This document shows positions 1,059 to 62,386 of a DNA stretch of 64,000 nucleotides, piece after piece. This DNA comes from Thiomicrorhabdus aquaedulcis (GTDB lineage Bacteria; Pseudomonadota; Gammaproteobacteria; Thiomicrospirales; Thiomicrospiraceae). The position numbers and the translations under genes were made by a program. The notes under the pieces are model-generated. The model made no database searches. It worked only from the letters and a program-made list of their open reading frames with translations, and was not told the origin of the DNA. The stretch covers positions 682,001-746,000 of the forward strand of contig NZ_AP018722.1 of assembly GCF_004001325.1 (NCBI RefSeq), given 5' to 3'. How positions within the stretch are numbered: the stretch's first letter is position 1; each line of letters opens with the position of its first letter.

Positions 1059-1892
1059 ATGAACCAGGTGCAAATTGGCGCGCATACGGTGGCGTTGGTG
1101 CGCACCACGCGCAAGCAATCGTTGGCGCTTAAATTTAAACCCAGCGGCGTGGCGTTATTGGTGCCTCGGCATTTGTCGCAGGCACACATAATGCGTTTGC
1201 TCAGCGTTCACCAGGCCTGGTTAGTTGAGCAATTAGAACGCTATGCGCAACGCGTGCCACCATCACCGCAATCACCGCAATCACCATACGCGCTAGCGTC
1301 GAGCGCAAACCCCGCATTTAAGGTGCAAGACGGGGCGCAGTTTGAGTGGTTGGGCAACCACGTCACCGTGCGCGTGTTACCAGGCCTGGTTAATTCTTCG
1401 TTGTCTGCTTCTTTTCAGTCTTCTAATACGCTTAATAAGGCGCTTAATAATGCGCTCAATTATGTTGAATGGCGGTGGGACGACAACGTCTTGGGCGTGC
1501 ACGCGCCTGCGCTAGAAGCGGTGCAAGCGCATTTGCCCAGCGCGTTTAAACAGCAGCTTATGGAGCGCGCTCACGCCTACATTGCCCCAAAATTGGCACA
1601 TTACGCGCAACACATTGGAGTAAATGTGCGTCAATTGCACATTAAAACCTACAAATCGCGTTGGGGCAGTTGTTACACCGACGGACGCATTCAATTTAAC
1701 TGGCGCTTAATGCAAGCCCCAGCATTTGTGGTCGATTATGTGATTGTGCACGAACTGTGTCATCTTATTCACGCCAATCATTCGGCGCATTTTTGGCGCC
1801 TGGTAAGCCAATACTACCCGCAAACGCCCGCCGCAAAAGCCTATTTAAAAACCCACGGCCGCCGTTTAATTACCTTTTTAGACGGGGTTTAG
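1059..1892 (+). CDS. YgjP/DUF45-type zinc metallopeptidase (M48-like)
   Basis: 277 residues. The C-terminal half carries the zinc motif HELCHLIHANH at about residues 231-241, preceded by YKSRWGSCYTDGRIQFNWRL, which is typical of the YgjP/WLM DUF45 family of putative metal-dependent hydrolases. The cellular role is not established. The middle of the protein (about residues 65-145) is low complexity (SPQSPQSP, SLSASFQSSNTLNKALNNALN) and looks like an expansion relative to the family. Two copies of the dispersed palindrome lie inside the gene, read as HQAWL (1211-1220) and LPGLV (1380-1389). Start ATG 1059 has only a weak AGGG upstream. Confidence 0.88.
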   Translation: MNQVQIGAHTVALVRTTRKQSLALKFKPSGVALLVPRHLSQAHIMRLLSVHQAWLVEQLERYAQRVPPSPQSPQSPYALASSANPAFKVQDGAQFEWLGNHVTVRVLPGLVNSSLSASFQSSNTLNKALNNALNYVEWRWDDNVLGVHAPALEAVQAHLPSAFKQQLMERAHAYIAPKLAHYAQHIGVNVRQLHIKTYKSRWGSCYTDGRIQFNWRLMQAPAFVVDYVIVHELCHLIHANHSAHFWRLVSQYYPQTPAAKAYLKTHGRRLITFLDGV

Positions 1893-1910
1893 GATTTGTC
1901 GCAACCATTA

Positions 1911-1935
1911 GTTGCAACTTTTCGTTGCAATTTTT
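1911..1935 (+). terminator. Rho-independent terminator
   Basis: GTTGCAAC, a five-base loop and GTTGCAA form a stem followed by TTTTT, 18 bases after the YgjP-like stop codon. Confidence 0.7.
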
Positions 1936-1989
1936 AATCGCACCCGTAGTCACACCTATTAACCGCACCTTTTAAAACAGCAGAGCGCC

Positions 1990-4911
1990 ATGAGTTTAAT
2001 TTCTGATTTTGATGGTTCCACCGTGATATTAACCGCCAACAGTCGTTTGGCGCAAAGCCTTAAACACGATGCATTGGGCGACCGTGCGGTGAGCGTGTTG
2101 CCCCAAATTATGTCGTTTAGTCAGTGGTGGAATGCGTGGTTGGATGAGGTAATTTTGGCCGGTGAACTCTCTTTAGAACAGATGAGCCAGCGCCATTTAA
2201 ACGCTTTTGAAGCGCAGGTTTTGTGGGAAGAGGTGTTACAGCAAGAACTGAATGAATGGGTAAAGTTAAGTGCCGATAATCTGGTACAAGAGGATGACAT
2301 ACCAGAACCCATCGAGTTGTTAAACCCCTCCAGCACCGCCAAACAGCTTTACCAGGCCTGGTCATTACAACAAGGTTGGTTAGACGACGCACTGTGGCAA
2401 ACCACGTTGGCACAAGGCGGCACATCAAAAGAGGTGGCGTTATTTGAACGGTGCCAGCAGCGTTATCGCCAACTGTTGCAACGCCATAATTGGCTGGACG
2501 AGCCGTTATTGAGTCAGCAGCGTTTGGTTTGGTTGGCGCAAGGTAAAGGTCGTTTGCCGTTGGCCTTTAACGTAGTGGGATTTGATGAGTTAACACCTGA
2601 GCTTTTAGCGTGGCAAACCATTGTGCAACAGCGCGGTGTTAAGGCCATTATTGAGTTGCCCACGTTGTCCACGGCGGCGATACAGACCCAAAACACTGCG
2701 CACGCTTTGTACATGGCCGCCGATGCGGTTGACGAAGCGCAGCAAGTGGCGCTGTGGTGTGTTGAACAGTGGCAACGTTTGTCGCAGTGCAAAGACAGCA
2801 ATCAAAACCCCAATCAAAAAAACCTGCGCATAAAAATTGGCGTGGTCGCCCCCAACTTGGCCGATCACAAAGCGTTATTAACCCAAGCGTTAGACGAGCA
2901 ATTGTATTTGGCCGGCCTGCAACCGCTGCGCAGTGTGAGCGTGCAACCGCCATTTTACAATTTGTCGTTGGGCGAGCCATTAAGCCAATTGCCTTTGGTT
3001 AAAAACGCCTTGTTGGGGGTCGAGTTGTTATTGCAGCCGCACAAAACCTGTTCGTTTGCCAACTGGAGTCAGTGGCTTATTTCACCTTATACCTTGGGCG
3101 ATTTAAACGCCCGCCAAACCCTAGAAGCCAAATGGCGGGGGTTGCAATGGGCCGAGTTTAAATGGCCTAAATTGCTGGATAGCGCCACCCCAGCGTTGCA
3201 AGAACCAGGCCTGGCCAAATTCAAAAACGCCTTAGAACAGCAAGCCAATATCACGTTGGCCAGTCGCTTAACCTTGCGCGAATTTGTGCAGGCGGTGCGG
3301 GCGTGTTTGGATCTGTTTAACCAACCTTTGCGCACCCTTAACAGCGATGAATACCAACAAAACAAGGCGTTACAGTCGGCTCTTGAGGCGTTTTCACGGC
3401 TGCTGTTTTTAAAGCCGTCGGCACGGTTGGGCGACTGGCTCAGTCGCTTAAAACGCTTTTTAGGCGAGCAGGTACATCAATCGCAAAGTAAGGGGTTGCA
3501 GCCCATTCAACTTATGGGGGTGTTAGAAGCCGGCGGGCAACATTTTGATGCGCTGTGGGTGATGGGGTTAACCGATGAGGCCTGGCCAAGAAGCCCCAAT
3601 CCCAATCCGTTTTTGCCCATGCGATTGCAACGCCAAGCCGGTTTACCACGTTGCGATGCGTTGCGTGAGCTGGTGTACGCGCAAAGCATCACCGCACGCC
3701 TTAAAACCGCCGCCACCAATACCGTGTGGAGTTACCCCCAACAAACCGCCGGTGCGGTGTTGCTGCCCAGTCCATTATTGAGCGAGATGTTGACCACGCC
3801 GTATGTGCCGCGCCCTTATCAAACCTTGGCGCAATGGAGTTTTATGCAACGCGATGTCGCCGCCCCGTTAGAGTGGATTGAAGACGCGCAAGCGCCCGCC
3901 ATGCCCGAACACAGCCAAGCGCCTGGTGGCACCAGTATTTTGGCGGCGCAAAGTCAGTGTCCGTTAATGGCGTTTATTGATTATCGGTTGGGCGCACGGT
4001 ATGGCTTACAGACCGTCACCGACGGACTGCAAAACACCCATCAGGGCACGTTAATTCATTGGGTGTTAGAGCGTTTTTGGCAAGTGACGCGCACGCAAAG
4101 TGCGTTATTGGCGTTAAGCCAAACGGCCTTAGAAGCGCGGTTAAACGAATTAATAACCCAAGCCTTTAGCGAACTGCACGGCCAGTTAACCGCGGCGTAT
4201 CTGCACATTGAACAGGCCCGAATAGGTGAGTTGTGTTTGGCGTGGTTAAACTTAGAAAAAACCCGTCCAAGTTTTGAGGTGGTGGCGCTGGAAACACAGC
4301 AGCTTATTCATTTGGCGGGGATAGAATTTAAAGTCATTATTGACCGGGTTGACCGAGTCAATGCACAGAGTGGCACGCCGCAAATGGTTATTTTAGACTA
4401 CAAAACCGGCGCGGCTAACATTACCAACTTGCTAAAAACGCCCACCAAAGCGCCGCAATTGGCGGTGTATTTGCACGCCTTACAGAGCTTAGACAGCGTC
4501 AGCGACTTGAACGACTTAAAAGACTTTAACGATATGAACAACATTGGCGGTATTGGCTATGGTTTATTGCACTCCGACGACGGCGCTAAAATCAGCGCAC
4601 TGTGCCAAGCGGCTGATATTTTGCCCGACTCACGCACCATCACGGTGTTTAGCAAATTGGCCGACAAAGAGGGCGGCGACTATTACCAAGTGGCGTGGAG
4701 CGACTTTTTAGACGCGTTGCGCGAGCAAGTTTTTACCCTAGCGTTACACATTAAGCAAGGCGTTGCCCCCATGCAATTTGACCGATTAGAGGATGTGCAA
4801 TACGCGCACGGTCGTTTGGCACTGCGTTTGCCGGAAGTGGCGGCGCAATTAAACCAAGTGGGCGCTCTAAAAGGTGAAGCCGATGAAAGCGAAGGGGTCG
4901 CACATGAGTAA
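1990..4911 (+). CDS. PD-(D/E)XK nuclease family protein, AddB-like 'probable DNA repair protein'
   Basis: 973 residues. The N-terminal part resembles the inactive-helicase architecture of AddB/RecC-like proteins (VILTANSRLAQSLK at the start, then long helical stretches; LMGVLEAGGQHFDALWVMGLTDEAWPRSPNPNPFLP about residues 505-540). The C-terminal ~280 residues carry a RecB-type nuclease fold with GTLIHWVLERFW, then IDRVDRVN and VILDYKTG, the latter supplying the D-x-K catalytic signature. I did not find the full four-Cys iron-sulfur pattern of classical AddB. The next gene, an AddA-like helicase-nuclease, overlaps by 8 bases, so the two are translationally coupled and probably form one end-resection complex. 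Two dispersed palindromes are inside (YQAWS, EPGLA). A short DLNDLKDFNDMNN tract looks like slippage-type low complexity. Confidence 0.85.
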   Translation: MSLISDFDGSTVILTANSRLAQSLKHDALGDRAVSVLPQIMSFSQWWNAWLDEVILAGELSLEQMSQRHLNAFEAQVLWEEVLQQELNEWVKLSADNLVQEDDIPEPIELLNPSSTAKQLYQAWSLQQGWLDDALWQTTLAQGGTSKEVALFERCQQRYRQLLQRHNWLDEPLLSQQRLVWLAQGKGRLPLAFNVVGFDELTPELLAWQTIVQQRGVKAIIELPTLSTAAIQTQNTAHALYMAADAVDEAQQVALWCVEQWQRLSQCKDSNQNPNQKNLRIKIGVVAPNLADHKALLTQALDEQLYLAGLQPLRSVSVQPPFYNLSLGEPLSQLPLVKNALLGVELLLQPHKTCSFANWSQWLISPYTLGDLNARQTLEAKWRGLQWAEFKWPKLLDSATPALQEPGLAKFKNALEQQANITLASRLTLREFVQAVRACLDLFNQPLRTLNSDEYQQNKALQSALEAFSRLLFLKPSARLGDWLSRLKRFLGEQVHQSQSKGLQPIQLMGVLEAGGQHFDALWVMGLTDEAWPRSPNPNPFLPMRLQRQAGLPRCDALRELVYAQSITARLKTAATNTVWSYPQQTAGAVLLPSPLLSEMLTTPYVPRPYQTLAQWSFMQRDVAAPLEWIEDAQAPAMPEHSQAPGGTSILAAQSQCPLMAFIDYRLGARYGLQTVTDGLQNTHQGTLIHWVLERFWQVTRTQSALLALSQTALEARLNELITQAFSELHGQLTAAYLHIEQARIGELCLAWLNLEKTRPSFEVVALETQQLIHLAGIEFKVIIDRVDRVNAQSGTPQMVILDYKTGAANITNLLKTPTKAPQLAVYLHALQSLDSVSDLNDLKDFNDMNNIGGIGYGLLHSDDGAKISALCQAADILPDSRTITVFSKLADKEGGDYYQVAWSDFLDALREQVFTLALHIKQGVAPMQFDRLEDVQYAHGRLALRLPEVAAQLNQVGALKGEADESEGVAHE

Positions 4912-7900
4912 CGAATTTATAAATAACGAATCGACGCTAAACCAAGTGCACATTAATCCCCAAGCGGCTTACGTCCAATTGAGTCATGCACTGGGGTTGC
5001 AAGAAGACGCCAATTTGCCCGATGCCGCCGTGCGGTTTGCGGCGATTAATCCGTTTGACTCGTTTATTGTGCAAGCCCCGGCGGGTTCGGGTAAAACGGC
5101 CCTTTTAACCCAACGTTATTTGGCGCTATTAGGCCAGGTGAATCAGCCTGAGCAAATTGTGGCCATGACCTTTACCAAAAAGGCCGCCGCCGAAATGCGC
5201 GAACGCATTATGGCTGCATTGCGCCTGGGGCTAAACGCTGCCAAACCCAATGCAACCTTATTTGAGCAAAACACCCATGCGCTGGCGGTGTGCGCGCTTA
5301 AACGCGATGCCCAATTGGGTTGGAATATTTTGCAAGCTCCACATCGTTTACGCATTAAAACCATCGACGGCATGAACGGCTATTTGGTAGGGCAAATGCC
5401 GTTACTCTCCAAAATGGGCGCACAACCGCAGGTGGCACAAAACAGCGATTTGGCGTATTTAGAAGCGGTGCAGCTCACCTTAAAAAGCACCTATTGCGAA
5501 GACGCGGTGGGTCAATTACTGCGTTTGGTCAATGGACGTTTTAACCGTGCCGAAAATTTATTGGTGAGCATGCTTAAAAAACGTGATCAATGGATGGGGC
5601 ATTTGGTGCGCCTGCGCAGCACCGACCAAGATGAGGCGCGTCTCCATTTAGAGAGCGCGTTGCACAGTATTGTGCAAAGCGAACTGAATGAGCACGTTGC
5701 GCATTTAAGCGGTGTACAAACGTATTTGCAAGAAGCCTGCGAACTGGCCGATTACGCCGTGCAAAACCAACAACCGCAGTTATCGCCATTATGCGGCGCG
5801 TGGCCACTGCACGCCGATTTAGAACATTTAATGCCCTGGCGCGCCTTGGCGCAATGGCTGTTAACCAGCGATGAAAAAGGGTTGCGTAAAACCGTTACGG
5901 TTAAAAATGGTTTTCCGGCCGGCAAAGGCTTGGCTAAAGAGCAAAAAGATCGATTTTTAAATGCGTTGGCTGGTTTAAACGCCGACCCGCATCGCGCCCA
6001 GTTGGTCGAAAGTTTAGCGGTGTTAAAGAACCTGCCGCAACCGCAGTACAGTGAAGAGCAGTGGGACAATTTGCAATGGTTGGTGCATCTGCTGACGGTG
6101 GCGGCGGGGTATTTAAAAGTGGTGTTTCAAAGTCGCGGGCAGGCCGATTTTATCGAAATTGCCCAAGCCGCCAGTCAGGCACTGGGCAGCGCATTAGAGC
6201 CGACCGAGCTGGCCGAGCAATTGGATTATCAAATCAAACATATTTTGGTGGACGAGTTTCAGGACACCAGCGCCGAGCAAAACAGTTTAATGTGCAAATT
6301 GGTGGCCGGTTGGCAACCCGGTGATGGGCGCACATTGTTTATTGTGGGCGACCCCATGCAGTCTATTTACCGTTTTAGAGAAGCCGAAGTGGGCAATTTT
6401 TTGCAGGCTTGGAAAGGTCGTTTGGGCGAGGTGTGTTTAACCCCGGTTCATTTAACGGTCAACTTTCGCTCAACGCACGGCGTGGTCGATTGGGTAAATC
6501 GAACCTTTGTAAAAGTGTTTCCAAAGCGCGATAACATTGAAAAAGGGGCGGTCAGTTACAGTCCAGCGGTTGCCGCGTCTACTGATGCCACGCCCGCTGT
6601 GCACGAGCATTGGGCGTTAAATCAAGCGCCCGAAAGCGAAGCCCAAGCGATGTTTGCGTTGGTGCAACAGCGTTTAGCGGAGCTGGCGGCGCAGGCTAAG
6701 GTTAATCCGACCCAAAAGTTGGCTAATATTGCCATTTTGGGGCGTTCACGCGCCAGTTTAATGGGCATTGCGCGCAGGTTTAAAGACGCCAATATTGCCT
6801 TTAAAGCGGTGGAACTTGAAAGCTTGGCCGAGCGTCAAGAGGTGCAAGATGTGTTGGCGTTAAGCCGCGCATTATTGCATTTGGCCGATCGTCCGGCGTG
6901 GATTGCTTTACTGCGCTCGCCGTTGGTGGGGTTGTCGTTGGCCGACTTGTATGCGCTGATGGGCGACGAACCCGCTAAGTTGCATCAAACGGTGTGGCGT
7001 TTATTGACCGCAAACACCACGCCATTGTCTGACGAAGGGCAAACGCGCTTAAACGGGGTTGTGCCGATTTTGCACGGCGCGTTACAGCGCTTGGGCAGTG
7101 TGGCATTTTCGACCTTGGTGCGCGAAACTTGGTTGCAATTAGACGGCGCGCAAACGGTGGAAAACGCCGTGGCGTTAGATAATGTGCAGGTGTTTTTTGA
7201 CACCTTGGCCGGGTTGGACGGCGAGGCGTTGGAGTTTAGCCAACTGGACAGTCTGTTGGCCGATTTGTACGCCAAAGCCGACGCGCGGCCAGAGGCTCAG
7301 CAAATTGAGCTGATGACCATGCACAAATCCAAAGGCTTGGAATTTGATACGGTTATCCTACCAGGCCTGGGCAGAAAGCCGCGCAGTAACGATCATCAAC
7401 TGGTCAGTTGGTTTGCATTTTTGGACAATAGCGCCTTGGACGAAACACCGGTTGAGCAGTTGGTGATTGCGCCGATTGATCAAAAGGCCAGGACGCGTCG
7501 CCTTTAAGCAAGTTGTTAAAACGCTTTGAGCAGCAAAAGCAAGACTATGAGTTGGCGCGTCTGTTTTATGTGGCGTGTACCCGGGCCAAATGCCAATTGC
7601 ACCTGTTTGGCAGCGTGCGTTTTCAACTGTCGGACAAGGACAGCGATACCTTGGACAGCGGTTTTACCGACACGCTAAAACCACCCAGCAGCAGTTTGCT
7701 GGCACCTCTCTGGCCGTGCGTGGCGGCGCAATTTGTGGCCTTGGCCAAAGCGTTTGAGCCCGCGCCAAGCCAAGTCGATGCGCTTAAACCCATCATAAAA
7801 GTCAGTCGGTTGCCGCTTGAACGAGTTGGATTTAAACCCTCAGCACTCATGTTAAAAGACGTTGCGGTAAATAAGCTGGCTGATCAGGTTAAAAACCCGG

Positions 7901-8541
7901 TAAATGAAACCTTACCAGGCCTGGTCGAATCGGCATTGCTTAATACCGAAGTGGGTAAACTGGTGCATAAAGTGTTAGAGCATGTGGTGGTACAAGGGCT
8001 TGAACACTGGCCATTAGCGAATGTTGCGGCGCAACTGCTGCAACGTCAACCCATTTACGCCCACTGGTTAACGCAGCAAGGGGTTATCGACGATTTACCC
8101 GTTGCGCTCGCGCGGGTGCAGCAGTCGTTACAAAATGCGTTAAGCCATGCGCAAGTGCGTTGGGCGTTGAGCAACCATTGGGACGAATCGGCGACCGAGC
8201 TGGCGTTGGTGAGCACGCAATTAAGTGACGCAACCGTTGACGAATCCATCGAACATCTTCAACAAACCAACCAACTTAATCTGCATGTGGTAGACCGAAC
8301 GTTTGTGGATGACGCCAATACGCGTTGGATTATTGATTACAAAACCAGTGCGTTTGTCGGTGAATGGCGTGCGCTTGATGTAACCGAACGCCAAGCCTTT
8401 ATAAACGCCAAAATAACCCACTACCAGCCACAATTAGCGCGCTACGGCGCGTTATTTGCCCAACTTGAAAACCGACCCCAAAAATGGGTGCTGTATTTTA
8501 GCGACCTTAATGAATGGGTTGAGTTGGCGGTGGAGGGGTGA
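4904..8541 (+). pseudogene. UvrD-family helicase/nuclease, AddA/RecB-like, interrupted by a frameshift
   Basis: Start ATG 4904 (MSNEF) overlaps the upstream gene and has AAGGGG before it. The first frame runs to 7507. It has Walker A (VQAPAGSGKTALLTQRYL), MTFTKKAAAEMRER, Walker B (HILVDEFQDTSAEQN), GDPMQSIYRFREAEVG, TVNFRST and MTMHKSKGLEFDTVILPGLG: helicase motifs I-V. The second frame continues from about 7480 to 8541 with LARLFYVACTRAK (motif VI) and a nuclease domain (EVGKLVHKVLEHV, WIIDYKTS). One missing A in the AAAA run at about 7482-7485 would restore a continuous ~1210-residue protein reading IDQKGQDASPLSKLLKRFEQQ. All catalytic motifs survive, so this is either a very recent mutation or a sequencing indel. 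Confidence 0.85.
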
Positions 8542-8947: not shown

Positions 8948-8959
8948 CGAGGCTTTTAA

Positions 8960-9263: not shown

Positions 9264-12200
9264 TTAACCAGGCCTGGTCAGATTTATTTGAAGGGTTTGT
9301 GCGTTAAAGAAGGCTTCAAATTCGTTGATGGGCAAGGGTTTGCTAAACAAATAGCCTTGGTACAGCGTGCAGCCTTGTTCTAATAGTATTTGACGTTGCT
9401 GCTGGGTTTTCAACGCCTTCGGCGACCACTTCGAGTTTTAAGGCTTTTGCCATGGCCAAAATGGTTTGTACAATGGTAACGTTTTCTTGATTGCGTTCGC
9501 GCTCTAAGCCTTTAACAAACGATTGGTCTATTTTGACTTGCGCCAGCGGCAGTTGTTTAATAACCGACAGTGATGAGTAACCTGTGCCAAAGTCGTCCAT
9601 CGAAAATTGAATGCCTATTGAACGAAGTTGTTGCATGGTTTGAATGGTCTGTTCTATGTTTTGAATGGCTAAGCTTTCGGTGAGCTCAAGTTTTAAACAC
9701 GTTGGGTTAATGCCGGTGTCTTGTATAGTTTTGAGCAGATTGGGTACAAATTGTTCGTGCGCAAATTGTTTAGGACTCACGTTTACCGCAATTTGCACAT
9801 GGCGTAATTGGTCGTGGGTTTGCCATTGTCGTAGTTGCTGACAGGCTTGGTATATAACAAACTCGCCCAAGGCTAAAATTAAAGTAGATTCTTCGGCTAA
9901 GGGAATGAATTCGGCAGGCGATATCATGCCTTTTTGTGGATGGTTCCAACGAATAAGGGCTTCGCAACCTGTAATGCGTAAGTGCTGATTTATTTGCGGC
10001 TGGTAGTGCAGTTCAAACTCGCCACGCACTACGGCTTGACGCAAATCGCTAAGCATGGCCGCGTGGTGTTCTATTTTAATTTGCATGTCGTTATTAAAAA
10101 ATCTTACGGTATTGCGACCTTGTTTTTTGGCCTCGTACATGGCCATATCGGCATGCATAATAATTGATTCGGCACTCTCAGCTTTGGGGCCAAATTGGTC
10201 TATGCCGATGCTGGGGCTTGAATGATGGGTGATATTTTCTAAGATAAAGTCGGCTTCAAAGGCCGCTAGAATTTTTTGAGCAATATCGGCGGATAATTCA
10301 GACGCACTTACGCAGTCGAAGCCAATGCCTTCAATAAGCACTACAAATTCGTCACCGCCAATGCGCGCCACGGTGTCTATTTCACGCACTGCATTTTTTA
10401 AGCGGTGCGCTACTTCTATTAACAACAAGTCGCCCATTCGATGACCTTTAGAATCGTTAAGGGTTTTAAAGTTGTCTAAATCTATAAAAGCAGCACGCTG
10501 TATTCTTGGGTACGCACGCATTTTTGAATCGCCAAATCTAAACGATCCCACAGCAAACGTCGGTTGGGCAGTTGGGTTAGTGGGTCGTAAAAGGCCAGTT
10601 TTTCAATTTTAGCTTGGTTTTTATGGCTTTCGGTAATGTCTGAAAAGTTGGCGACGTACTGAGTAATCTTCAACTCGGGGTCGAGCACGGCGGTGATGGT
10701 TAACCATTCCAAATACAATGTACCGTCTTTGCGGCGATTCCAAATCTTACCCTGCCAAAAATGTTGGGTTGTTAGAACCTCCCAAAGAGTTCTGTAAAAT
10801 TCTTGGGTTTGCTTGCCTGAGTTTAAGATGGCCGGAGTCAACCCAATCACTTCGTTGGCGGCATAGCCGGTTAAGCGACAAAAAGATTGGTTAACGCGCA
10901 AAATAATGCCTGCCGCATTGGTAATCATTATACCGTCTTGGCTTTCAAACGCTGTAGCGGCCACGCGCAAGGCGTCTTGGGCTTTTTTGGTGTGCGAAAT
11001 GTCGTGAAAAACCACCACAGTGCCCGCCAATTTTTGATGCATGTGCAATGGTTGCGACGATATATGGACTGCAAACGATTTGCCATTGGCATGTATAAAA
11101 GTAAGTTCGCCTTCAAAGGTGATTGTTGTTTCAATAGGGCAAGTCTGATGTTTGCTTTCTTTGGGATTGTGAAACAAGCTGTGCGCATTTTGGCCAATTA
11201 AATTGGCTTTTGAGTAGCCTAATATTTTTAAAGCGGCTTCGTTTACCTCGGTTATATGGCCTTGTAAATCTGTGGCGTAAAGCCCTTCGGTCATAGTGTT
11301 GTATAGGCTTTCTAAATAATGGGTGGTTTGCATTTTAGCGCGATTTGAACGACGATTTTGATGAATAGCCGCCCCTAATATTAGCAATGTAACCGTGCTG
11401 ATGAGTGCGTAAAACCAAAAGTATTGCACATTCTGGTCCATTTCGGGCGCGGGTTTAATCGACACTAAATAGGCGTTTACTTGGTTGTCTAAGTTTTTGA
11501 CAGCACTAAAGGTTGCCAAGTGCGTTAACCCATCTAGGGTCAGAAGATGGCCAAAACTTACATGCTGATTCAGTTTTTTAGACAAAGAGGCATCGCTTTG
11601 CCAAACTGATCCCAGTGCTTTAGCTGGTCTAGGGGTTTGATGGGTTTGCTCTAGCCAATCGCTTGAGAATAAGCTGGGCTGATAGAGTGCCGAAAACTCA
11701 CTAAAACTTTTAAGCTCTAAATCGTGCTTATTTTGAATTAAGCTAAAATCACTGTGCGGGTCGAGTAATCCCATTTCTATGCGCAAGGGTTCAAACGATT
11801 GACTAAGCTCAACGCTGCCCAAGTGCTCACCGTGTAAAATTATTGGAAATACATGTCTAAAGCCCGACTCTATTCGGCCAGCTTCAAAGCCATGCACGGC
11901 CTGTAAGGTTGCATTAGCTCGTGTGACCGAAATGCGCACGTTGCTTAAGTCGTCACCAAACTTATCGGGTTGGTGAAAGCGTAAAAAGCTTTGGTTAGTT
12001 GGCGTATGAAAGTGAAAGACATTCATATTTTGCGCGGCTAATTTGTCTTGCAGCGGCAAAAGTGCGTTATAAAGTTGCGCGCGGGCAATGTCGGCTTGAT
12101 TAGGGTTTAGAGCAAGGCGAAGATTGTTGATAACTTTTGGATTATTGACTACGGTTTCAAAGTAGGCTTCTATGCCTTTTAAATGAATTTTTTGTACTGC

Positions 12201-13640: not shown

Positions 13641-13650
13641 CCAGGCCTGG
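13641..13650. repeat. Dispersed palindrome abutting the ppsA ribosome binding site
   Basis: CCAGGCCTGG followed directly by TCAAAGGAG, the Shine-Dalgarno of ppsA. The palindrome ends four bases before the AAGGAG, so a DNA-bound protein or a short RNA hairpin here could affect ppsA translation. Confidence 0.6.
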
Positions 13651-13665: not shown

Positions 13666-16130
13666 ATGTCAATGTCATCGTTAAACTCATCGCTTAAAGA
13701 GTATCAATACATTCGATTTTTTAACCAACTGCGTTTAACCGATGTGCCGTTGGTAGGGGGCAAAAACGCCTCACTGGGCGAGATGTATCAACAGTTGGTG
13801 CCCCAAGGCGTGCCGATTCCCAATGGCTTTGCCATTACCGCCCAGGCCTATCGTTACCTGCTCGACCAAAATGATTTATGGCCGCAAATGCACGCCTTAT
13901 TGGACGATGTTGAGGTAGGACAAACCGTCAAGCTGCAAGCGCGTGGCGCACAGTTAAGAGCGCTTATTAATAATGCGCCACTGCCCGAGCCTTTGGTGGC
14001 CGAAATGACGGACGCCTATCACGCGTTAATGGCCAGTTTTGGTGTAGAAGGCTCGTTGGCGATTCGCAGTTCGGCGACCGCGGAGGATTTACCCACCGCC
14101 AGTTTTGCCGGTCAGCAAGAAACTTTTTTAAACATTCTGGGCGTTGAGGCGTATTTGAGCGCGTGCCAACAGTGTTTTGCCAGTTTGTTTACCGACCGCG
14201 CCATTCATTACCGCATGGAAAAAGGCTTTGACCACTTTGATGTCGCACTGTCGATTGGCGTGCAGTGGATGGTGCGTTCCGATTTGGCCACCTCGGGGGT
14301 GATGTTTTCGATTGACACCGAAAGCGGTTTTAGTGATGTAGTGATGATTAATGCGGCCTATGGTTTGGGCGAAAACGTGGTGCAGGGTGCCGTTGATCCA
14401 GACGAGTTTTACGTCCACAAACCCACCTTTAACCAAGGCTATCGCGCGGTGTTAAAGCGCCATTTAGGGGCTAAAAAAATCAAAATGATTTACACCAGGC
14501 CTGGTCAAAACACCAAAGACGCACCGTCGATTATGAATGTAGCGACCACGCACGCCGAACAAACGCAGTATTGCATTACCGACGCCGAAGCGCTTAAGTT
14601 GGCCGAGTTTGCCATTAAAATTGAGCAGCACTATTCGGAACAAGCCGGCCAACCGCGCCCCATGGACATTGAATGGGCCAAAGACGGCGTAACCGGTGAG
14701 TTGTTTATTGTGCAAGCGCGCCCCGAAACCGTGGTGTCGCAAACCAATGCGCACACCTTGGCGCAGTATCATATTGGTACGCCAACCCCCGCACCCTTAA
14801 TTTGTGGGCGCGCGGTGGGGGCTAAAATTGCCAGTGGTCGCGTGCGAGTGATTGAATCGGTGGCGCAGTTAAGCGAGTTTAAGCCAGGCGAAGTCTTGGT
14901 GTCCGACATCACCACTCCCGATTGGGAGCCAGTCATGCAAACCGCCGCCGCGCTGGTCACCAATCGCGGCGGTCGAACTTGTCATGCCGCCATCATCGCG
15001 CGCGAGCTGGGGATTCCCGCCGTGGTTGGAACAGAACACGGCACTGCAACGCTTAAAACCGGCCAAAGGGTGACCGTGTCGGCCGCCGAAGGCGATGAAG
15101 GTCGCGTGTACGACGGTGAGGTGGCGTTTAGCATACTTAAAACCGATTTAAGCGCCCTGCAAAAACCCAAAACGCAGATGATGCTTAATTTAGGCAATCC
15201 CGAGTTGGCGTTTAGCGTCAATCAACTCCCTAATGATGGGGTGGGTTTGGCGCGTATGGAATTTATTATCAGCAGTCAAATTCAGGTGCATCCGCAAGCG
15301 TTGTTGGCACCGCATTTGGTGACGTGCGCGGATACGCGCGCCAAAATTAACCAATTAACCCAAGGATTTGCCAGCGGCAGTGACTATTTTGTGCACACCT
15401 TAATTGAAGGGATTGGCACCATTGCGGCAGGATTTTACCCAAAGCCCGTGGTGGTTCGTTTATCGGATTTTAAGTCAAACGAGTACGCCAGCCTGTTGGG
15501 CGGCGAATTTTTTGAGTTAAAAGAAGAAAATCCCATGCTGGGGTTTAGGGGGGCATCGCGTTACAACGACCCCGACTTTAGCGCCAGTTTTGCCTTAGAA
15601 TGCCAAGCCATTAAAACCGTACGCGAAACCTTGGGGCTTAGTAATGTGATTGTGATGGTGCCGTTTTGTCGTCGGGTTGAAGAGGCTAAAAAAGTGATTG
15701 AAACGCTCAGCGCCAATGGTTTAAGCCGTGGGCAGGCCGGATTACAAATTTATATGATGTGTGAGATTCCTAATAACGTATTGTTAATAGACGAGTTTTC
15801 GGTGTATTTTGATGGGTTTTCGATTGGCACAAACGATTTAGCGCAATTGGTGCTAGGCGTGGATCGAGATTCGGCCAAAGTGGCGTTTAATTACGATGAA
15901 CGTGACGCGGGCGTTAAAAAATGGTGCAAATGGCGGTAGAAGGCGCGCATCGCAATGGCAAATACATTGGTCTGTGCGGCCAAGCGCCGTCGGATTATCC
16001 TGAGTTTGCCGACTTTTTGGTTGAGCTGGGCATCGACTCGATGAGCCTGAATCCAGACTCACTGTTAAGCACATTGCCGACGGTATTGGCCGCCGAAGCG
16101 CGCCTTAAACCAGGATTGCAAAAGGGTTAA
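13666..16130 (+). pseudogene. ppsA: Phosphoenolpyruvate synthase, frameshifted near the 3' end
   Basis: PEP synthase (ATP + pyruvate + water to PEP, AMP and phosphate), a gluconeogenic enzyme also found in autotrophs. Start ATG 13666, with AAGGAG. Order: ATP-grasp domain (LVGGKNASLGEMYQ, SLAIRSSATAEDLPTASFAGQQETFLN), swivelling His domain with GGRTCHAAIIARELGIPAVVG (phospho-His about residue 440), and the PEP/pyruvate-binding barrel (LSDFKSNEYASLLGG, ENPMLGFRGASRY, FSIGTNDLAQLVLGVDRDS). The first frame ends at 15939 after DAGVKKWCKWR. The normal ending, MVQMAVEGAHRNGKYIGLCGQAPSDYP..., continues in another frame to 16130. Restoring one A in the A6 run near 15916-15921 gives AGVKKMVQMAVEG. The catalytic Cys region lies after the break. 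Confidence 0.92.
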
Positions 16131-16664: not shown

Positions 16665-16693
16665 CGATTGACCAGGCCTGGTCAATCGTTTTT
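16665..16693. terminator. Terminator built on a 24-bp perfect palindrome
   Basis: CGATTG + ACCAGGCCTGGT + CAATCG (16665-16688) is a perfect 24-bp palindrome with T5 on the plus strand and a T-rich run on the minus strand. It lies at the 3' end of tonB (its T-run overlaps the tonB stop) and contains the dispersed palindrome at its core. Confidence 0.65.
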
Positions 16694-19599: not shown

Positions 19600-19642
19600 T
19601 TGACCAGGCCTGGTTAAATCGGTTTTAACCAGGCCTGGTCAA
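19600..19642. repeat. Head-to-head pair of dispersed palindromes (19-bp arms, 5-base loop)
   Basis: Two copies of the palindrome (19604-19613 and 19629-19638) are arranged so that the outer 19 bases on each side (19600-19618 and 19624-19642) are perfect reverse complements around the loop TCGGT. It lies between the convergent metallo-hydrolase and serB genes, just after the serB stop in its reading direction. Confidence 0.9.
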
Positions 19643-25750: not shown

Positions 25751-25768
25751 TCACCAGGCCTGGTGATT
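25749..25768. repeat. 20-bp palindrome at the guaA 3' end
   Basis: AATC + ACCAGGCCTGGT + GATT, starting on the guaA stop codon. It contains the dispersed palindrome extended by four complementary bases on each side. Confidence 0.85.
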
Positions 25769-45856: not shown

Positions 45857-46531
45857 ATGAAACTGCTGTTAATTGAAGACGAGCTGCTGCTGTCGCAAAA
45901 CTTAACCAAACAGTTTAATCGCTTAGGGTTTGTGGTGGATGCGGCATTGGATGGATTGGAGGCGTTGCATTGCCTAAGTGAGCACACTTACGATGCCGTG
46001 ATTTTAGATTTGGGTTTGCCCAAACAACCAGGCCTGGTGGTATTAGAAACGTTGCGCAAACAGGGTGTGACAACCCCAGTTATCATATTAACCGCGCGCA
46101 ACACTTGGCAAGAACGCGTAAATGGTTTAAAAGCCGGTGCCGACGATTATTTGGGCAAGCCGTTTGAGTTTGAAGAGCTGTTGGCGCGGGTTCACAGCGC
46201 GTTACGGCGTGCACAGATGGCGCACAACGCGGTCGCGCAAAACGCGCTGCAACAGGGTGACTTAACGCTGGATTTAGACGCCCAACAAGTGCGCGTCGGC
46301 ACGCAAGAGTGGCAGGCACTGACCGCCACCGAGTTTAAACTGCTTAAGTTGATGATGCAGACGCCGCAAAAAATATTTTCAAAAAGTGAGTTGATTGAGC
46401 GTATTAACGACCAACATTACGATTGTGATAGTAATGTGGTTGAGGTCTACATTAGACGTTTGCGTCAACGCATTGGCAAGCAGCGCATTGAAACTTATCG
46501 CGGCCAAGGTTATCAATTTAAGGTGATTTAA
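45857..46531 (+). CDS. OmpR-family response regulator (PhoP/QseB-like)
   Basis: 224 residues. The receiver domain has Glu7/Asp8 and phospho-acceptor Asp51 (AVILDLGLPKQPG), Thr (IILTARN) and Lys (GKPFEFEEL). A C-terminal winged helix follows (EWQALTATEFKLLKLMMQTPQKIFSKSELIERI, then SNVVEVYIRRLRQRIG). The PGL palindrome lies in the loop after the phospho-Asp (46028-46037). It is paired with the histidine kinase gene 69 bases downstream and then with the efflux operon, which it probably regulates. Confidence 0.92.
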   Translation: MKLLLIEDELLLSQNLTKQFNRLGFVVDAALDGLEALHCLSEHTYDAVILDLGLPKQPGLVVLETLRKQGVTTPVIILTARNTWQERVNGLKAGADDYLGKPFEFEELLARVHSALRRAQMAHNAVAQNALQQGDLTLDLDAQQVRVGTQEWQALTATEFKLLKLMMQTPQKIFSKSELIERINDQHYDCDSNVVEVYIRRLRQRIGKQRIETYRGQGYQFKVI

Positions 46532-46600: not shown

Positions 46601-48046
46601 ATGCAATCCTTAGAAACCCAACTGCGTAACGCGTTAAGCGTGAGTTTGCTGGCGCTGTTTTTACTGTTTTGGTGGGTGACCACCTACAGCATTCACCAGC
46701 TTATTGAGCAATATGTGGTGACGCGCTTAAGTCACGACGCCGAAATTTTACAGCGTCAACTCACCTTGCAAAACGGTCAATGGTCGTGGGATCAAAATAG
46801 CAACGAGGTGATTTATCAACGCCCGCAATCGGGACACTATTTTTGGGTCACCACCGTCAATGCTGATGCATCTGTCCCTTTGGCGAGCTTGTCATCGCCC
46901 TCGCTGAGTGACTTTAGCTTGTTTGCCCCAACCGATTCGCAGCACGCCGCGGTGTACGAAACCATGGGGCCAAAAGACAAAATGGTGTTGGTCTATCGAG
47001 CGGCGTTTGCAATGACCGATGCGGTGTCTGGTCAAAAAGCCGATGCGTATCTGTTTGTGGTCGAAGACCATTCGCCCATTCAAAATATCTTAAGGCAGTT
47101 TGATTGGCTGTTTGGGCTGTTTTCGCTGTTAGGGTTGTTGGGGTTGTGGTGGCTGCAAAAGCGCATCTTAAAACGCAGTTTTGCCAGTTTGCAGCCGGTG
47201 CGCCATTCGCTTAATCAAGTGTTAGCGGGTGAGGTGGCCAGTATTAACCATCAAGTTCCCAAAGAAATTGCCCCGTTGGTCAGCACGCTTAATCACGTTT
47301 TGGGGCAGTTGCAATCGCGCTTAGAGCGCTCACGGCAAGCCACGGGCAATTTAGCGCACGCGTTAAAGTCGCCGCTTAACGTGCTGTATCAATTTTTGGA
47401 CGACCCGCACATGAATGCCAACCCGGCGCTAAAAACGGTGTTATTAGAACAAGCCAAACGCATGGAAGTGCTGATTGAGCGCGAGTTGTCTAAAGCCCGC
47501 ACGGCCGGGCGTGGTCTGAGTTTGCAGACGTTTCATTTTAGCGACGATTTACGCGATTTGCTGGCGAGTTTAAAACAATTGCATATTGATAAAATCATTG
47601 AGTATCAGGTGGTTGAGTTTGACTTTGAAGGCTTGGACTTCGATCGAGAAGATCTATTTGAGCTGCTTGGCAACGTCTTGGACAACGCCAGTAAATGGTG
47701 TCAGAGTCGGGTGCGTGTGTTGGTTGTGTTAGAGCCAATGGAGCAAATCAATCAAATGAATCAAATAAATCCACCAGGCCTGGTCAATGCGCCCGCGATT
47801 CGTTTGGTGGTCGAAGACGATGGCCAAGGCGTGTCGGCCGATGACATGCTGTTAATGCAGCAACGCGGTACACGCTTGGATGAGAGTCAACCCGGCCACG
47901 GCTTGGGATTGTCCATTGCCGCCGACATTGCCAAAGCGTATGGCGGCCGTTTGGAGTTTTCGCAACATCGGGTGTTTATCGCCCAAGTTGCCCCTTTGTC
48001 GGGACTGCAAGTGAGTGTTATTTTACCAATGTCGGCGCAGGTTTAA
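46601..48046 (+). CDS. Sensor histidine kinase
   Basis: 481 residues. Two membrane helices (VSLLALFLLFWWVTTYSIHQLI and FDWLFGLFSLLGLLGLWWL) flank a periplasmic sensor domain of about 140 residues. H-box: ATGNLAHALKSPLNVLYQF (His253). N-box: LLGNVLDNASKWCQSR. G-boxes: VEDDGQGVSADDM and GHGLGLSIAADIAKAYGG. The order and the NLAHALKSPLNVL motif place it with PhoQ/QseC-like kinases. A QINQMNQINPPGL low-complexity stretch with a palindrome copy sits in the ATPase domain. The sensed signal is unknown. Confidence 0.92.
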   Translation: MQSLETQLRNALSVSLLALFLLFWWVTTYSIHQLIEQYVVTRLSHDAEILQRQLTLQNGQWSWDQNSNEVIYQRPQSGHYFWVTTVNADASVPLASLSSPSLSDFSLFAPTDSQHAAVYETMGPKDKMVLVYRAAFAMTDAVSGQKADAYLFVVEDHSPIQNILRQFDWLFGLFSLLGLLGLWWLQKRILKRSFASLQPVRHSLNQVLAGEVASINHQVPKEIAPLVSTLNHVLGQLQSRLERSRQATGNLAHALKSPLNVLYQFLDDPHMNANPALKTVLLEQAKRMEVLIERELSKARTAGRGLSLQTFHFSDDLRDLLASLKQLHIDKIIEYQVVEFDFEGLDFDREDLFELLGNVLDNASKWCQSRVRVLVVLEPMEQINQMNQINPPGLVNAPAIRLVVEDDGQGVSADDMLLMQQRGTRLDESQPGHGLGLSIAADIAKAYGGRLEFSQHRVFIAQVAPLSGLQVSVILPMSAQV

Positions 48047-48152: not shown

Positions 48153-49511
48153 ATGTCGGTACAAACATCATCGTTAGCGGCTTTAGCCGTAAATTTAATG
48201 GCGGGCTTTACGCTCATTGGTGCAAGCCATTCTGTGTTTGCGCAAACACAACCACAATCACCGGTGCAAACATCGGTACAAACATCGATACAAACTCAAA
48301 CTGCACCCAGCTTATCGCAGGTGGCTCAAGCGGTGTATCAGCGCTTGGCCGAACAGACCTTGTTAACCGGTTATGAGCAAGTGGCGCAAGCGCAAAGTGT
48401 CCTTAAAAGCGGGTTTTTAGCCGAAGGGGTCACGGTCAATCTTAAACATCAAAGTGATGCGCTCACCGAGCAGACCGGGCAGTTTAGTTGGGAGGGCGGG
48501 GTGGCCTTGCCATTGGGATTGGGTGCTCAAAATCAGGCGCGTCGCGAGCTAAGCACGCTGTACGGCGCGCAGCGCGATGCCTATGAGCGCTTGTTGCAAT
48601 CGCAGGCCTCGGGCGTGGCGCGCCAAAGCGTGTGGACGGTTAAAAAGGCGCAAGCCATTCTGCAGCACGCGACTGAGCAAGAGGCGGTTTTTAGCCAACT
48701 CACGCAACAAGTACAGCAGGCCGTAAAGGCCGGCGAACAACCGCAACTGGATTTAGTCTTGGCGCGCAAAGCCCAAGCGCAAGCCAATACACAGCGTTTG
48801 GCCGCGCTTACCCAACTTAACCAGGCCTGGTCAAGTTATGAATATTGGACGGGTTTAAATACCTTACCCAATGATGTAATGGAAAATTTTTCGAATGACC
48901 TTAGCGGTTCAACCGGTTCAAGCGGTTCAATCGCTTTAAGCGATGTCAGCAAACACCCCAAAGTGCAGTGGCAGGCGTTGCAGGTGCAAAAAGCCCAAGG
49001 TCAACTTGCGCTGGAACGGGCACAAAGTAAGCCCAAAAGCACGCTGTTTTTAGGCGCGGTCAGTGAGCAAGACGCACAAACCAGCGCACGCTCGCAGCTT
49101 ATTGCCGAGGTCAGTATTCCGCTCGGAACGCCTGAGTCGTATCAAGCCGCCATGGCCGAGCAAGCCTATGGGGTCAGCGAACAAAACAGTGCGCTGTTGC
49201 AAGCTCAGCAGACGGTGCAACAAAGCGTAAGGTTGCAAGCCCTAGAGTTGCAGGCCTTTGGTGCATTGCAACAGAGTCTTAAAGAAGCCCTTGCGCAAAG
49301 TCAGCAAGTGTATGACATGGCCAAAGCCGGTTATCAACAAGGCGAAACGCCCATGGCAACGCTGTTATTGGCGCAACAACAGCAGCTGCAATCACAGTTG
49401 GATTGGGCGATAAGTGAAGTGGAATACGGGCAAAAAATCAGCGCGTTTTTGCAAGAGCGTGGCGACAATTTAGTCACGCAAGACCTTTCAACACCACCGC
49501 ATGCAAACTAG
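48153..49511 (+). CDS. TolC-family outer-membrane efflux protein
   Basis: 452 residues from ATG 48153, chosen over 48108 because a clean signal peptide (ALAVNLMAGFTLIGASHSVFAQ) begins here. The mature protein is Gln/Ala-rich coiled-coil (QAVYQRLAEQTLLTGYEQVAQAQ; MAKAGYQQGETPMATLLLAQQQQLQSQLDWAISEVEY), as in the CusC/CzcC branch of TolC proteins. It is followed by the adaptor and the RND pump, completing a tripartite system. A GSTGSSGS tract and one palindrome copy (NQAWSS) are inside. Confidence 0.86.
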   Translation: MSVQTSSLAALAVNLMAGFTLIGASHSVFAQTQPQSPVQTSVQTSIQTQTAPSLSQVAQAVYQRLAEQTLLTGYEQVAQAQSVLKSGFLAEGVTVNLKHQSDALTEQTGQFSWEGGVALPLGLGAQNQARRELSTLYGAQRDAYERLLQSQASGVARQSVWTVKKAQAILQHATEQEAVFSQLTQQVQQAVKAGEQPQLDLVLARKAQAQANTQRLAALTQLNQAWSSYEYWTGLNTLPNDVMENFSNDLSGSTGSSGSIALSDVSKHPKVQWQALQVQKAQGQLALERAQSKPKSTLFLGAVSEQDAQTSARSQLIAEVSIPLGTPESYQAAMAEQAYGVSEQNSALLQAQQTVQQSVRLQALELQAFGALQQSLKEALAQSQQVYDMAKAGYQQGETPMATLLLAQQQQLQSQLDWAISEVEYGQKISAFLQERGDNLVTQDLSTPPHAN

Positions 49512-53923: not shown

Positions 53924-54393
53924 AAACGACTATGGTTGAAGAGAATGTGAGCCAAAAACTAAGCCAAAACCCCGTTTTACCAGAATTATTAGAGTTAACA
54001 GAGTTAACAGAGTTACCAGGCCTGGTGACTCAATCAAGCGTGTTATTAAGCCTGTTTTTGCCTAAAGCGGTGGTAAGCGACGCGGTGGATTGTTTGATGG
54101 TGCAAGAATGGGTGATTAATTTTAACGTCACGCCCGTGCAAGGCTATGGTGGCTTATTAAAGGGTCAAAATGCGTTAAATAATCAGCGCACCCAAGAGGG
54201 GCAAAATAGCCAAAACAATCAAGACAGTTTAAGCGTTAAAGAACAAGTGGCGGGTTATCAAGACAAAATGCACATTCAAGTTTTGTGTCCATCCGAGCAA
54301 GTGCCCGCCATTTTATTGGCCATAAAAGCCAACCTGCCGCACTCCACGGTGCGTTATGTTATCGTGCCGGTGTTGGCGATGGGTCAGCTTTAA
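53920..54393 (+). CDS. DUF3240 family protein
   Basis: 157 residues overlapping the pump gene by 4 bases (ATGA). The core SSVLLSLFLPKAVVSDAVDCLMVQEWVINFNVTPVQGYG...VQVLCPSEQVPAILLAIKANLPHSTVRYVIVPVLAMG matches DUF3240, a PII-like small protein often encoded after HME-RND pumps. Repeated LLELTELTELPGL (with a palindrome copy) and an NNQRTQEGQNSQNNQDS tract are insertions relative to the family. Its 3' end overlaps the convergent exosortase gene by 35 bases. Confidence 0.82.
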   Translation: MKTTMVEENVSQKLSQNPVLPELLELTELTELPGLVTQSSVLLSLFLPKAVVSDAVDCLMVQEWVINFNVTPVQGYGGLLKGQNALNNQRTQEGQNSQNNQDSLSVKEQVAGYQDKMHIQVLCPSEQVPAILLAIKANLPHSTVRYVIVPVLAMGQL

Positions 54394-56656: not shown

Positions 56657-56840
56657 ATGGTTTTGTCATAACGATTCAAGATGATTTGGCGCAAGTGTTA
56701 AGGCGAAAAAGTGCAATTTTTATGCATTATTATGTTGGCAATTTTGTAACGATGCACTTACTTTGGCCAGGTGATTGCAACCTTAATAGAGTCTTTAACA
56801 AAGCCTTAAAAAGAGTTTAACCAGGCCTGGTGAAAGCAAA

Positions 56841-59984: not shown

Positions 59985-60102
59985 TTTGAAAAGGAGAGTG
60001 CGATAATTTGATTTAACACAAGTATCTTTTTTAAAAAGATTGCAAGGCTCTAAAACCGGTTTAACCAGGCCTGGTTGCTTTGATTACTTTGATTACTCCG
60101 TC

Positions 60103-60124: not shown

Positions 60125-60222
60125 CTACAGGGGAAAACCGAACCCGCAATGATGGGGTTTTATTGGTGGTAAAACCAAACCAACCAGGCCTGGTTAAAAT
60201 CTTAGCAAAATAATCAGACCGC

Positions 60223-60997: not shown

Positions 60998-61059
60998 GTG
61001 CAAGGGACTTTTATTCTGTTAAAATTTAATAACCATTACCAATCTTGAGTAATCTTATT

Positions 61060-62310
61060 ATGAAAAATTTCTATTCCTTAGCCGAGACCGCTGATTTACT
61101 TACCGTGTCTAAAGAGACGTTAAGGCGCTGGGACGATACCGGAAAATTAAAATCAACCCGATTGCCTAACAATTATCGCGTTTATACACCAGAATCGTTA
61201 AAGCAATATGTCCAGGGTAAAAGTATTTTTGAACTCGAGGTGATGGACGAAAATCACTATATCCCAATCAAGCCTTATAGTGTACTTGAATTATTTGCGG
61301 GCGCAGGCGGAATGGCATTGGGCTTAGAAAAAGCGGGAATGAAATGCCAACTCCTTAATGAACTTGACAAAACCGCATGCAAAACGCTAAAAACCAACCG
61401 TCCAGATTGGAATGTAGTAGAAGGCGACGTAGCCAAAGTTTGTTTTAAAAACTATTTTGGAAAAATTGATGTTGTCACCGGTGGGTTTCCCTGTCAGGCT
61501 TTTAGTTATGCCGGCAAAAAATTAGGTCTTGAAGATGCTCGGGGTACTTTGTTTTACGAGTTTGCACGTGCGGTAAAAGAGACGCAGCCATTAATGTGCG
61601 TGGGTGAAAATGTTAAGGGATTAGTAACGCATGATGATGGCAAGACGCTTAAGGGGATGATTGAAATATTGAGTGATTTGGGCTACGACGTGTTGGAGCC
61701 ACAGGTTTTAAAGTCGGCTTATTTTAAAGTGCCACAAAAGCGCGAAAGACTTTTCCTAATTGGGATAAGACGAAATTCGGGCATTCAATTTAACTATCCC
61801 AAGCCCATGCAAGAAATGATGACGCTTACGGACGCCCTAAAAGCAGGAATCTTGTATGCAACCGATGTGCCTGAGTCGCCTGGACAGCGCTACCCTGCCC
61901 GTAAAAAAGAAATTATGGATATGGTGCCTCCAGGCGGGTATTGGCGTGACCTTCCAGAGGATGTTCAAAAAGAATACATGCTTAAAAGCTATTATCTAGG
62001 TGGTGGAAAAACCGGCATGGCGCGCAGAATTAGTTGGGATGAGCCATGTTTAACCTTGACGACATCACCGGCGCAAAAACAAACCGAACGATGTCACCCA
62101 GACGAAACACGTCCCTTTACGGTTAAAGAGTATGCGCGTATTCAAACTTTTCCCGACGATTGGCAATTTATGGGCAGTATGAACCAAATATACAAACAAA
62201 TAGGCAACGCTGTACCCGTAAATTTAGCGCACGCAGTAGGCAAAGAAGTGGTTAAAGCGTTAAATCAATTTATGATTCAGCAAGAATTACGCGCCAAGTT
62301 TTCAGCTTAA
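61060..62310 (+). CDS. C5-cytosine DNA methyltransferase with N-terminal helix-turn-helix
   Basis: 416 residues from ATG 61060 (an upstream TTG at 61045 is less likely). Residues 1-50 form a MerR-like helix-turn-helix (SLAETADLLTVSKETLRRWDDTGKLKSTRLPNNYRVY). The methyltransferase motifs follow: LFAGAGGMALGL (residues 78-89), PCQ with catalytic Cys145 (GGFPCQAFSYAG), GENVKGL near 183, QKRERLFLIGIR and IGNAVPVNLAHAVG. A variable target-recognition region lies between the QKRE and IGN motifs. The paired endonuclease is divergent. The N-terminal domain suggests autoregulation. Confidence 0.92.
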   Translation: MKNFYSLAETADLLTVSKETLRRWDDTGKLKSTRLPNNYRVYTPESLKQYVQGKSIFELEVMDENHYIPIKPYSVLELFAGAGGMALGLEKAGMKCQLLNELDKTACKTLKTNRPDWNVVEGDVAKVCFKNYFGKIDVVTGGFPCQAFSYAGKKLGLEDARGTLFYEFARAVKETQPLMCVGENVKGLVTHDDGKTLKGMIEILSDLGYDVLEPQVLKSAYFKVPQKRERLFLIGIRRNSGIQFNYPKPMQEMMTLTDALKAGILYATDVPESPGQRYPARKKEIMDMVPPGGYWRDLPEDVQKEYMLKSYYLGGGKTGMARRISWDEPCLTLTTSPAQKQTERCHPDETRPFTVKEYARIQTFPDDWQFMGSMNQIYKQIGNAVPVNLAHAVGKEVVKALNQFMIQQELRAKFSA

Positions 62311-62348
62311 AAACAGAGTTCTAAAACTTAAAAAACTTAAAAAACTTA

Positions 62349-62386
62349 AAACCCATTTAGCCAGGCCTGGTTAAGTGGGTTTTTTG
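62349..62386 (+). terminator. Terminator with palindrome in its stem, after the methyltransferase
   Basis: ACCCATTTAG + CCAGGCCTGG + TTAAGTGGGT (with GU pairs) followed by T6; the palindrome (62361-62370) is the top of the hairpin. Convergent with the DUF1415 gene. Confidence 0.8.

Follow-up and report, generated by a model that had tools for sequence, protein, structure and literature searches.

What is a single short palindrome doing at 29 places in 64 kb of bacterial DNA, in genes and between them? The question is raised by a stretch of the Thiomicrorhabdus aquaedulcis genome (contig NZ_AP018722.1, positions 682,001 to 746,000; 64 kb, referred to as the window), in which a sequence-only reading had picked out exact copies of CCAGGCCTGG far above chance. 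Our analysis suggests that this palindrome is probably the core of a signal for DNA uptake, of the uptake signal sequence (USS) type, by which competent Thiomicrospiraceae would prefer their own DNA. We base this on its over-representation, the restriction of its 12-bp form to one family among the genomes searched, the GGCC-centred spellings of relatives, the enrichment between genes, the phased AT-rich flanks, the depletion on a second contig and the matches to competence genes.

The copies in the window, which run from 1211 to 62370, were all found where they had been described (Table 1); 100 dinucleotide shuffles gave a mean of 0.04 and a maximum of 1. Twenty-three of the 29 extend to the 12-mer ACCAGGCCTGGT, and the 8-mer CAGGCCTG occurs 32 times. 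The window's own genome (G000; two contigs of 2,440,205 and 96,830 bases, 2.54 Mb) contains 856 copies of CCAGGCCTGG, 718 of them in the form ACCAGGCCTGGT, and none of the reversed word. A 404-kb chromosomal sample holds 158 copies, of which 133 extend to ACCAGGCCTGGT, where an order-4 Markov model expects 1.6; the genome-scale count is thus nowhere near expectation. Single-mismatch neighbours are scarce (48 against 161 perfect copies in a 424-kb sample), and their mismatch falls mostly on the outermost base. The mean gap of 2.18 kb in the window agrees with the spacing of about 2.2 kb claimed earlier, but genome-wide it widens to about 3.0 kb. The motif is not restricted to one contig: it is found along the whole chromosome and recurs in relatives.

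The nearest named matches to the window's PEP synthase, the one protein compared for this purpose, are from Thiomicrorhabdus and Hydrogenovibrio. To follow the motif in relatives, we sampled 58 genomes of one family of sulfur-oxidising bacteria, which we take to be Thiomicrospiraceae, the relatives being sampled by stretches. Thirty of the 58 carry 409 copies of CAGGCCTG or more, and none of the remaining 28 has over 74. In 365 genomes that belong to the class but not to the family, where ACCAGGCCTGGT was the one spelling sought, no genome carries more than 5 copies of this 12-mer. Within the family, the bases at the outer ends lean towards ACCAGGCCTGGT in G000, G009, G015, G016, G021, G027, G030 and several genomes of other genera. 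In G063, 24 kb hold 8 sites, 3 of them AGCAGGCCTGCT. G023 has 1,025 copies of a different palindrome, ACCGGCCGGT, which numbers at most 15 in each of the other 57 genomes. G020 uses the non-palindromic AAACTCAACAGGCCGGGT, whose AACAGGCCGG part occurs 115 times in 440 kb, with 63 and 52 copies on the two strands and hence no strand bias (a trivial result for the palindromic forms). The spellings share a GGCC inner core, and they are clear dialects in the case of ACCAGGCCTGGT, ACCGGCCGGT and the G020 form. Since the last of these is asymmetric, the system can do without two-fold symmetry.

On an rpoB tree (one gene, 48 of the 58 genomes, some inner supports below 0.9), the motif states follow clades, with several losses. 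The motif is absent in at least three nested places, namely G003/G014/G031/G019/G026/G013/G024 around G023, G028/G012/G001, and G074/G076/G078. Motif-poor genomes were scanned for a dispersed replacement word resembling the motif, with every word counted over 40 kb from each of G003, G014, G019 and G024 and over 20 kb from each of G013, G026 and G031, and words containing GGCC over 24 to 60 kb; none was found, although a sparse word could escape such a scan. Two other repeats were seen in such genomes. In G019, the 12-mer AACCTCTTATAA is repeated 15 times in 40 kb, and contig C1 of the motif-poor G017 has many C/G homopolymer tracts, with 33 CCCCCCCC in 20 kb on both strands.

Placement was counted with a simple ORF (open reading frame) caller over 424 kb of G000, so that gene calls are approximate. 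Seventy-five of the 161 copies lie outside called genes, which leave 12.6% of the DNA, a 6-fold enrichment; three control palindromes are found between genes in 0 of 50, 2 of 26 and 0 of 19 cases. Relatives behave similarly, with 16 of 35 copies between genes in G009, G015, G016, G021 and G030 (pooled), 6 of 20 in G023, and 62 of 115 in G020, where the enrichment is 9.8-fold. Convergent spacers carry 2.15 copies per kb, tandem ones 1.42 and divergent ones 0.57. The 86 genic copies are read mainly in two frames (41 and 36 copies), mostly as xQAW and PGLV peptides. The earlier description of copies both inside and between genes holds for the window itself, with 17 copies in ORFs and 12 outside, judged on ORFs of 150 amino acids or longer, 42 out of 44 (the two overlapping ORFs left out hold no copy).

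At a larger scale, the second contig (C2, 97 kb) has 5 copies where the chromosomal density predicts 34. Copies are more closely packed in the first 1.05 Mb (103 in 224 kb) than in the remainder (58 in 200 kb; p 0.006), and copy density per stretch rises with GC content (Spearman 0.69, 19 stretches). One low-GC stretch (G000:C1:2240001-2260000, GC 0.418) has just 2 copies and may be acquired DNA.

The flanks of the palindrome are also patterned. In G000, AT content peaks 8-10, 15-18 and 24-28 bases away from the dyad, with troughs in between; six other genomes of the genus (pooled) show these peak positions too, and G005, G018 and G025 show them in part. The periodicity of between-gene copies in G000 (0.0445) exceeds the maximum of its shift null (0.0238), and the control words TTGGCCAA and GCGCGC have flat flanks. 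An expectation-maximization (EM) test of orientation gave no sign of one-sidedness in the G000 flanks (observed value below the null mean). The tracts of G020 are one-sided: A-tracts lie at -4 to -9, -18 to -21 and -28 to -31 (centres near -6, -20 and -30) on the left only, and the right flank stays within its null.

We then consider the genes for DNA uptake. ComEC (PF03772) was matched in 54 of the 58 family genomes and a ComEA-like HHH protein (TIGR00426) in 51, in 39 of them above the curated cut-off. Both are matched in every one of the 32 motif-bearing genomes (the 30 defined by CAGGCCTG, with G020 and G023). Among the 26 others, 4 have no ComEC match, 7 no ComEA-like match and 9 lack one or both (Fisher p 0.0003, in a test that ignores shared ancestry and counts some incomplete drafts as genomes without the genes).

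Together, these results allow a choice within the list of roles that the sequence-only reading had left open, which comprised methylation, chromosome structuring and mismatch-repair or uptake marking. Uptake marking is the best supported of them, since between-gene enrichment, phased AT flanks and a non-palindromic form as in G020 are traits of uptake sequences; methylation, with the analogy to HIP1, a highly iterated palindrome (HIP) of cyanobacteria, fared badly.

Several observations weigh against an uptake signal. The USS and DUS (DNA uptake sequence) cores known so far are not palindromes. The flank pattern is uneven: g3, g5 and g6 show only the inner AT rise, G023 has no clear pattern, and genic copies in G000 have a periodicity (0.0141) within their shift null (maximum 0.0201). 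All GGCC sites of G000, of which about a tenth are motif sites, show a weak periodicity of 10.5-11 bases. The left flank of G020 rises above its null (between genes 0.384 against a null maximum of 0.065, inside genes 0.089 against 0.071) over a test stretch that takes in conserved bases adjoining the core. The period that fits best is 8.5-10.25 for G000 and 12.5-14.25 for G020, and thus the phasing can be called helical only approximately. G005, G018 and G025, in which the 8-mer CAGGCCTG is fixed, represent a looser form with mixed outer bases rather than a clean third dialect; AACAGGCCTGTT makes up just 2 of 16, 2 of 12 and 3 of 19 of their sites, respectively. Copies are spaced no more regularly than random ones (coefficient of variation 0.94 versus 0.98 for the first 100 genome positions, with 33% of simulations as low); more regular spacing is, in the available part of PMC1626085, a described trait of USS and DUS and not their definition.

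The competence genes and the receptor search add to these points. In 5 of the 32 motif-bearing genomes the ComEA-like match falls below the curated cut-off, and motif-poor genomes mostly retain ComEC (22 of 26) and the ComEA-like gene (19 of 26), so that loss of these genes explains the absence of the motif only in part. PF12019 was matched in just 3 genomes, all motif-poor, and gave no candidate receptor there. A four-pilin cluster, found with PF07963 in 10 chosen genomes and first taken as comNOPQ-like, has neighbours and translations that resemble type II secretion GspF-K (a GspG-J set), and the motif-rich G064 has no such cluster among its matches; we therefore rejected it as the receptor. 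In G000, a pilin with a two-component pair and an O-antigen-ligase-like gene as neighbours resembles a type IV pilin locus and yields no receptor.

Four other explanations were weighed. The first is that the palindrome is bound by an abundant protein that bends DNA and organises the chromosome, with a specificity that drifts from species to species. Symmetric phased flanks around a palindromic core point to a DNA-bending dimer, and intergenic placement would suit such a protein. However, the asymmetric G020 form with its one-sided tracts, the turnover of spelling and complete loss inside one genus, and the lack of any obvious origin-terminus gradient in the sampled stretches (judged without a formal test) make this explanation unlikely.

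The second is a methylation by-product of the HIP kind, in which part of the palindrome would be the target of an orphan methyltransferase that, together with biased mismatch or very-short-patch repair, ratchets sequences toward the motif. CCWGG and GGCC are classic C5-methyltransferase sites, which speaks for this idea, and a C5-methyltransferase gene, with a MerR-like N-terminus, is indeed present in the window. However, this gene adjoins, and is paired with, one for an EcoO109I-type endonuclease, whose site we take to be RGGNCCY, a sequence not contained in the palindrome. The window has only 2 RGGNCCY sites, and GGGCCC occurs 8 times in the genome sample where 50 are expected. We also searched twelve motif-rich genomes for methyltransferases (G000, G002, G005, G007, G009, G010, G015, G016, G018, G020, G021 and G023, with G020 and G023 counted as motif-rich by their own spellings). 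Seven of them (G005, G010, G015, G018, G020, G021 and G023) have no PF00145 match, and the single match in G016 is below the cut-off. The seven minus G005, that is 6 of the 12, have neither PF00145 nor PF01555, in a search of these two methyltransferase families and no others. Among the six, G010 is 86% complete, and G015, G021 and G023 are each one contig. These gaps and the non-palindromic G020 form speak against the HIP1 analogy. In being a GC-rich palindrome that takes alternate forms in relatives, the motif does recall the cyanobacterial HIPs (available part of PMC4390886), and yet phased AT flanks and a 6- to 10-fold enrichment between genes would not be expected of a methylation by-product, which we regard as rather improbable.

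The third is a Chi-like recombination hotspot read by an enzyme of the RecBCD/AddAB type. The copy number is of a fitting order, and adjacent genes in the window for a PD-(D/E)XK nuclease and a UvrD helicase, AddB/AddA-like by our reading, bear copies. However, Chi acts by orientation and as a single strand, whereas a palindrome has no orientation; phased duplex AT-tracts and enrichment between genes would also be unexpected, which leaves this explanation very improbable.

Finally, it is hardly credible that the palindromes are hairpin stems of intrinsic transcription terminators, for 86 of the 161 copies lie inside genes and only 10 of the 75 intergenic ones combine an extended stem with a T-rich tail, even though convergent and tandem spacers are richer in copies than divergent ones and the stem is extended by at least 4 pairs in 16 of 74 usable intergenic copies (mean 7.7, maximum 15 in 500 re-deals of the flanks). 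Termination is at most a secondary use of the motif, as it is often for USS and DUS according to the available part of PMC1852404.

We then propose a working model for the palindrome as an uptake signal. The core would be bound by a receptor on the cell surface, probably a type IV pilin or a secretin-associated protein, and the AT-tracts may make the duplex easier to bend or melt as it enters. Copies that are preferentially taken up and then recombined would make the motif accumulate by molecular drive. Changes in the receptor would give rise to dialects, and upon loss of uptake the copies would decay. Since most species have a perfectly palindromic core, either strand would present the same face to the receptor; the core of G020 is one-sided. 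It is tempting to go further, though here we hold our confidence at a little below even: the element could be a third, independently evolved label of self-DNA, with a two-fold symmetric duplex core and AT segments on both sides, from which G020 would have shed half the symmetry to give a one-sided, USS-like signal, so that a single family would record the transition from a symmetric to an oriented label.

If the model is correct, a third family, of free-living sulfur bacteria, carries USS-type labels, mostly palindromic ones. Its dialects, repeated losses and culturable species would allow the origin, respelling and death of such labels to be studied, the molecular-drive model to be tested and the receptor to be sought by comparing dialect clades. 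The model also predicts natural competence in a group for which the papers listed in our literature search include no report of it; a term search of the Hydrogenovibrio paper PMC6501319 found no mention of competence, natural transformation or uptake sequences. No report of the motif, or of uptake sequences in the family, was found among the open PMC papers listed. In their available parts, a 2006 paper (PMC1626085) gives uptake sequences as not known outside Pasteurellaceae and Neisseriaceae, and a 2020 paper (PMC7811141) still names these two families.

The window copies and their settings are collected in Table 1 with the other located features. An SbcC-like ATPase gene and a DUF3375 gene lie near each other in the window, a pair that we presume to resemble Mks/Wadjet operons. 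Two further repeats were observed in this genome, the 12-bp tandem repeat GGGTTCAACTAC in the window (10.6 copies) and, on contig C2 at about 22.1-23.1 kb, a 75-bp unit repeated directly some 14 times.

Table 1. Exact copies of CCAGGCCTGG in the window, followed by other features located there (window coordinates).
Feature	Position	Setting
Copy 1	1211..1220	in ORF 1059-1892 (YgjP-like)
Copy 2	1380..1389	in ORF 1059-1892 (YgjP-like)
Copy 3	2352..2361	in ORF 1990-4911 (PD-(D/E)XK nuclease)
Copy 4	3205..3214	in ORF 1990-4911 (PD-(D/E)XK nuclease)
Copy 5	7361..7370	in ORF 4874-7507 (UvrD helicase)
Copy 6	7915..7924	in ORF 7513-8541
Copy 7	9268..9277	between convergent ORFs
Copy 8	13641..13650	between tandem ORFs
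Copy 9	14495..14504	in PEP-synthase-like ORF 13666-15939; at a small (3-residue) insertion relative to five relatives (ppsA comparison, a single case)
Copy 10	16672..16681	between tandem ORFs; inverted repeat lengthened by flanks
Copy 11	19604..19613	between convergent ORFs
Copy 12	19629..19638	25 bp from copy 11
Copy 13	25388..25397	in ORF 24161-25750
Copy 14	25754..25763	just past end of ORF 24161-25750
Copy 15	30074..30083	between tandem ORFs
Copy 16	32123..32132	between tandem ORFs
Copy 17	36107..36116	in ORF 34641-38036 (SbcC-like)
Copy 18	36261..36270	in ORF 34641-38036 (SbcC-like)
Copy 19	37161..37170	in ORF 34641-38036 (SbcC-like)
Copy 20	39241..39250	in ORF 38777-40000
Copy 21	41648..41657	in ORF 40212-41705 (DUF3375)
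Copy 22	46028..46037	in ORF 45857-46531
Copy 23	47774..47783	in ORF 46601-48046
Copy 24	48821..48830	in ORF 48108-49511
Copy 25	54016..54025	in ORF 53920-54393 (DUF3240)
Copy 26	56821..56830	between tandem ORFs
Copy 27	60065..60074	between tandem ORFs
Copy 28	60184..60193	just past end of EcoO109I-type endonuclease gene
Copy 29	62361..62370	just past end of C5-methyltransferase gene, between convergent ORFs
Tandem repeat GGGTTCAACTAC	17223-17349	inside ORF 16692-17504 (minus)
SbcC-like and DUF3375 gene pair	34641-41705	
EcoO109I-type endonuclease gene	60223-60969	
C5-methyltransferase gene	61045-62310	

Three known systems bear comparison with the element. HIP1 and the alternate HIPs of cyanobacteria are likewise highly iterated GC-rich palindromes with alternate forms in relatives; unlike them, the element here has no consistent PF00145/PF01555 methyltransferase, has one non-palindromic relative and is set in phased AT flanks. 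With the DUS of Neisseriaceae it shares several dialects that have a constant inner core and follow the species tree, and members of the family without any (available part of PMC3630211). DUS are, however, continuous and non-palindromic and have no AT tracts, and our pilin searches found no ComP-like receptor.

The closest likeness is to the USS of Pasteurellaceae. The traits listed for USS in the available part of PMC1626085 are a preference for non-coding DNA, an excess of perfect over mismatched copies, no orientation bias and a pair of AT-rich segments on one side. The element here is over-represented, has an excess of perfect copies, prefers non-coding DNA and comes in dialects, and AT segments flank it in part of the family. 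The two systems have in common hundreds of perfect copies with few near misses, a preference for spacers, lineage-specific types, matches to competence genes and, in G020, one-sided AT segments. Even part of the spelling agrees, as the majority half-site of G000, GGTCAATTT, is identical to part of the extended Hin-USS, AAAGTGCGGTCAATTTT (available part of PMC12616744). TCAA follows GG in 65 of 321 half-sites versus 3.9% after TGGT in general, with TCAATT in only 6 of the 321. The differences are that the family is another one, the spacing of the tracts is not identical, uptake is so far a prediction, use in terminators is slight, the even spacing of USS and DUS is not found, and in most species AT segments lie on both sides of a core that is a perfect palindrome. 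It is this palindromic core that is the new element relative to the known uptake sequences.

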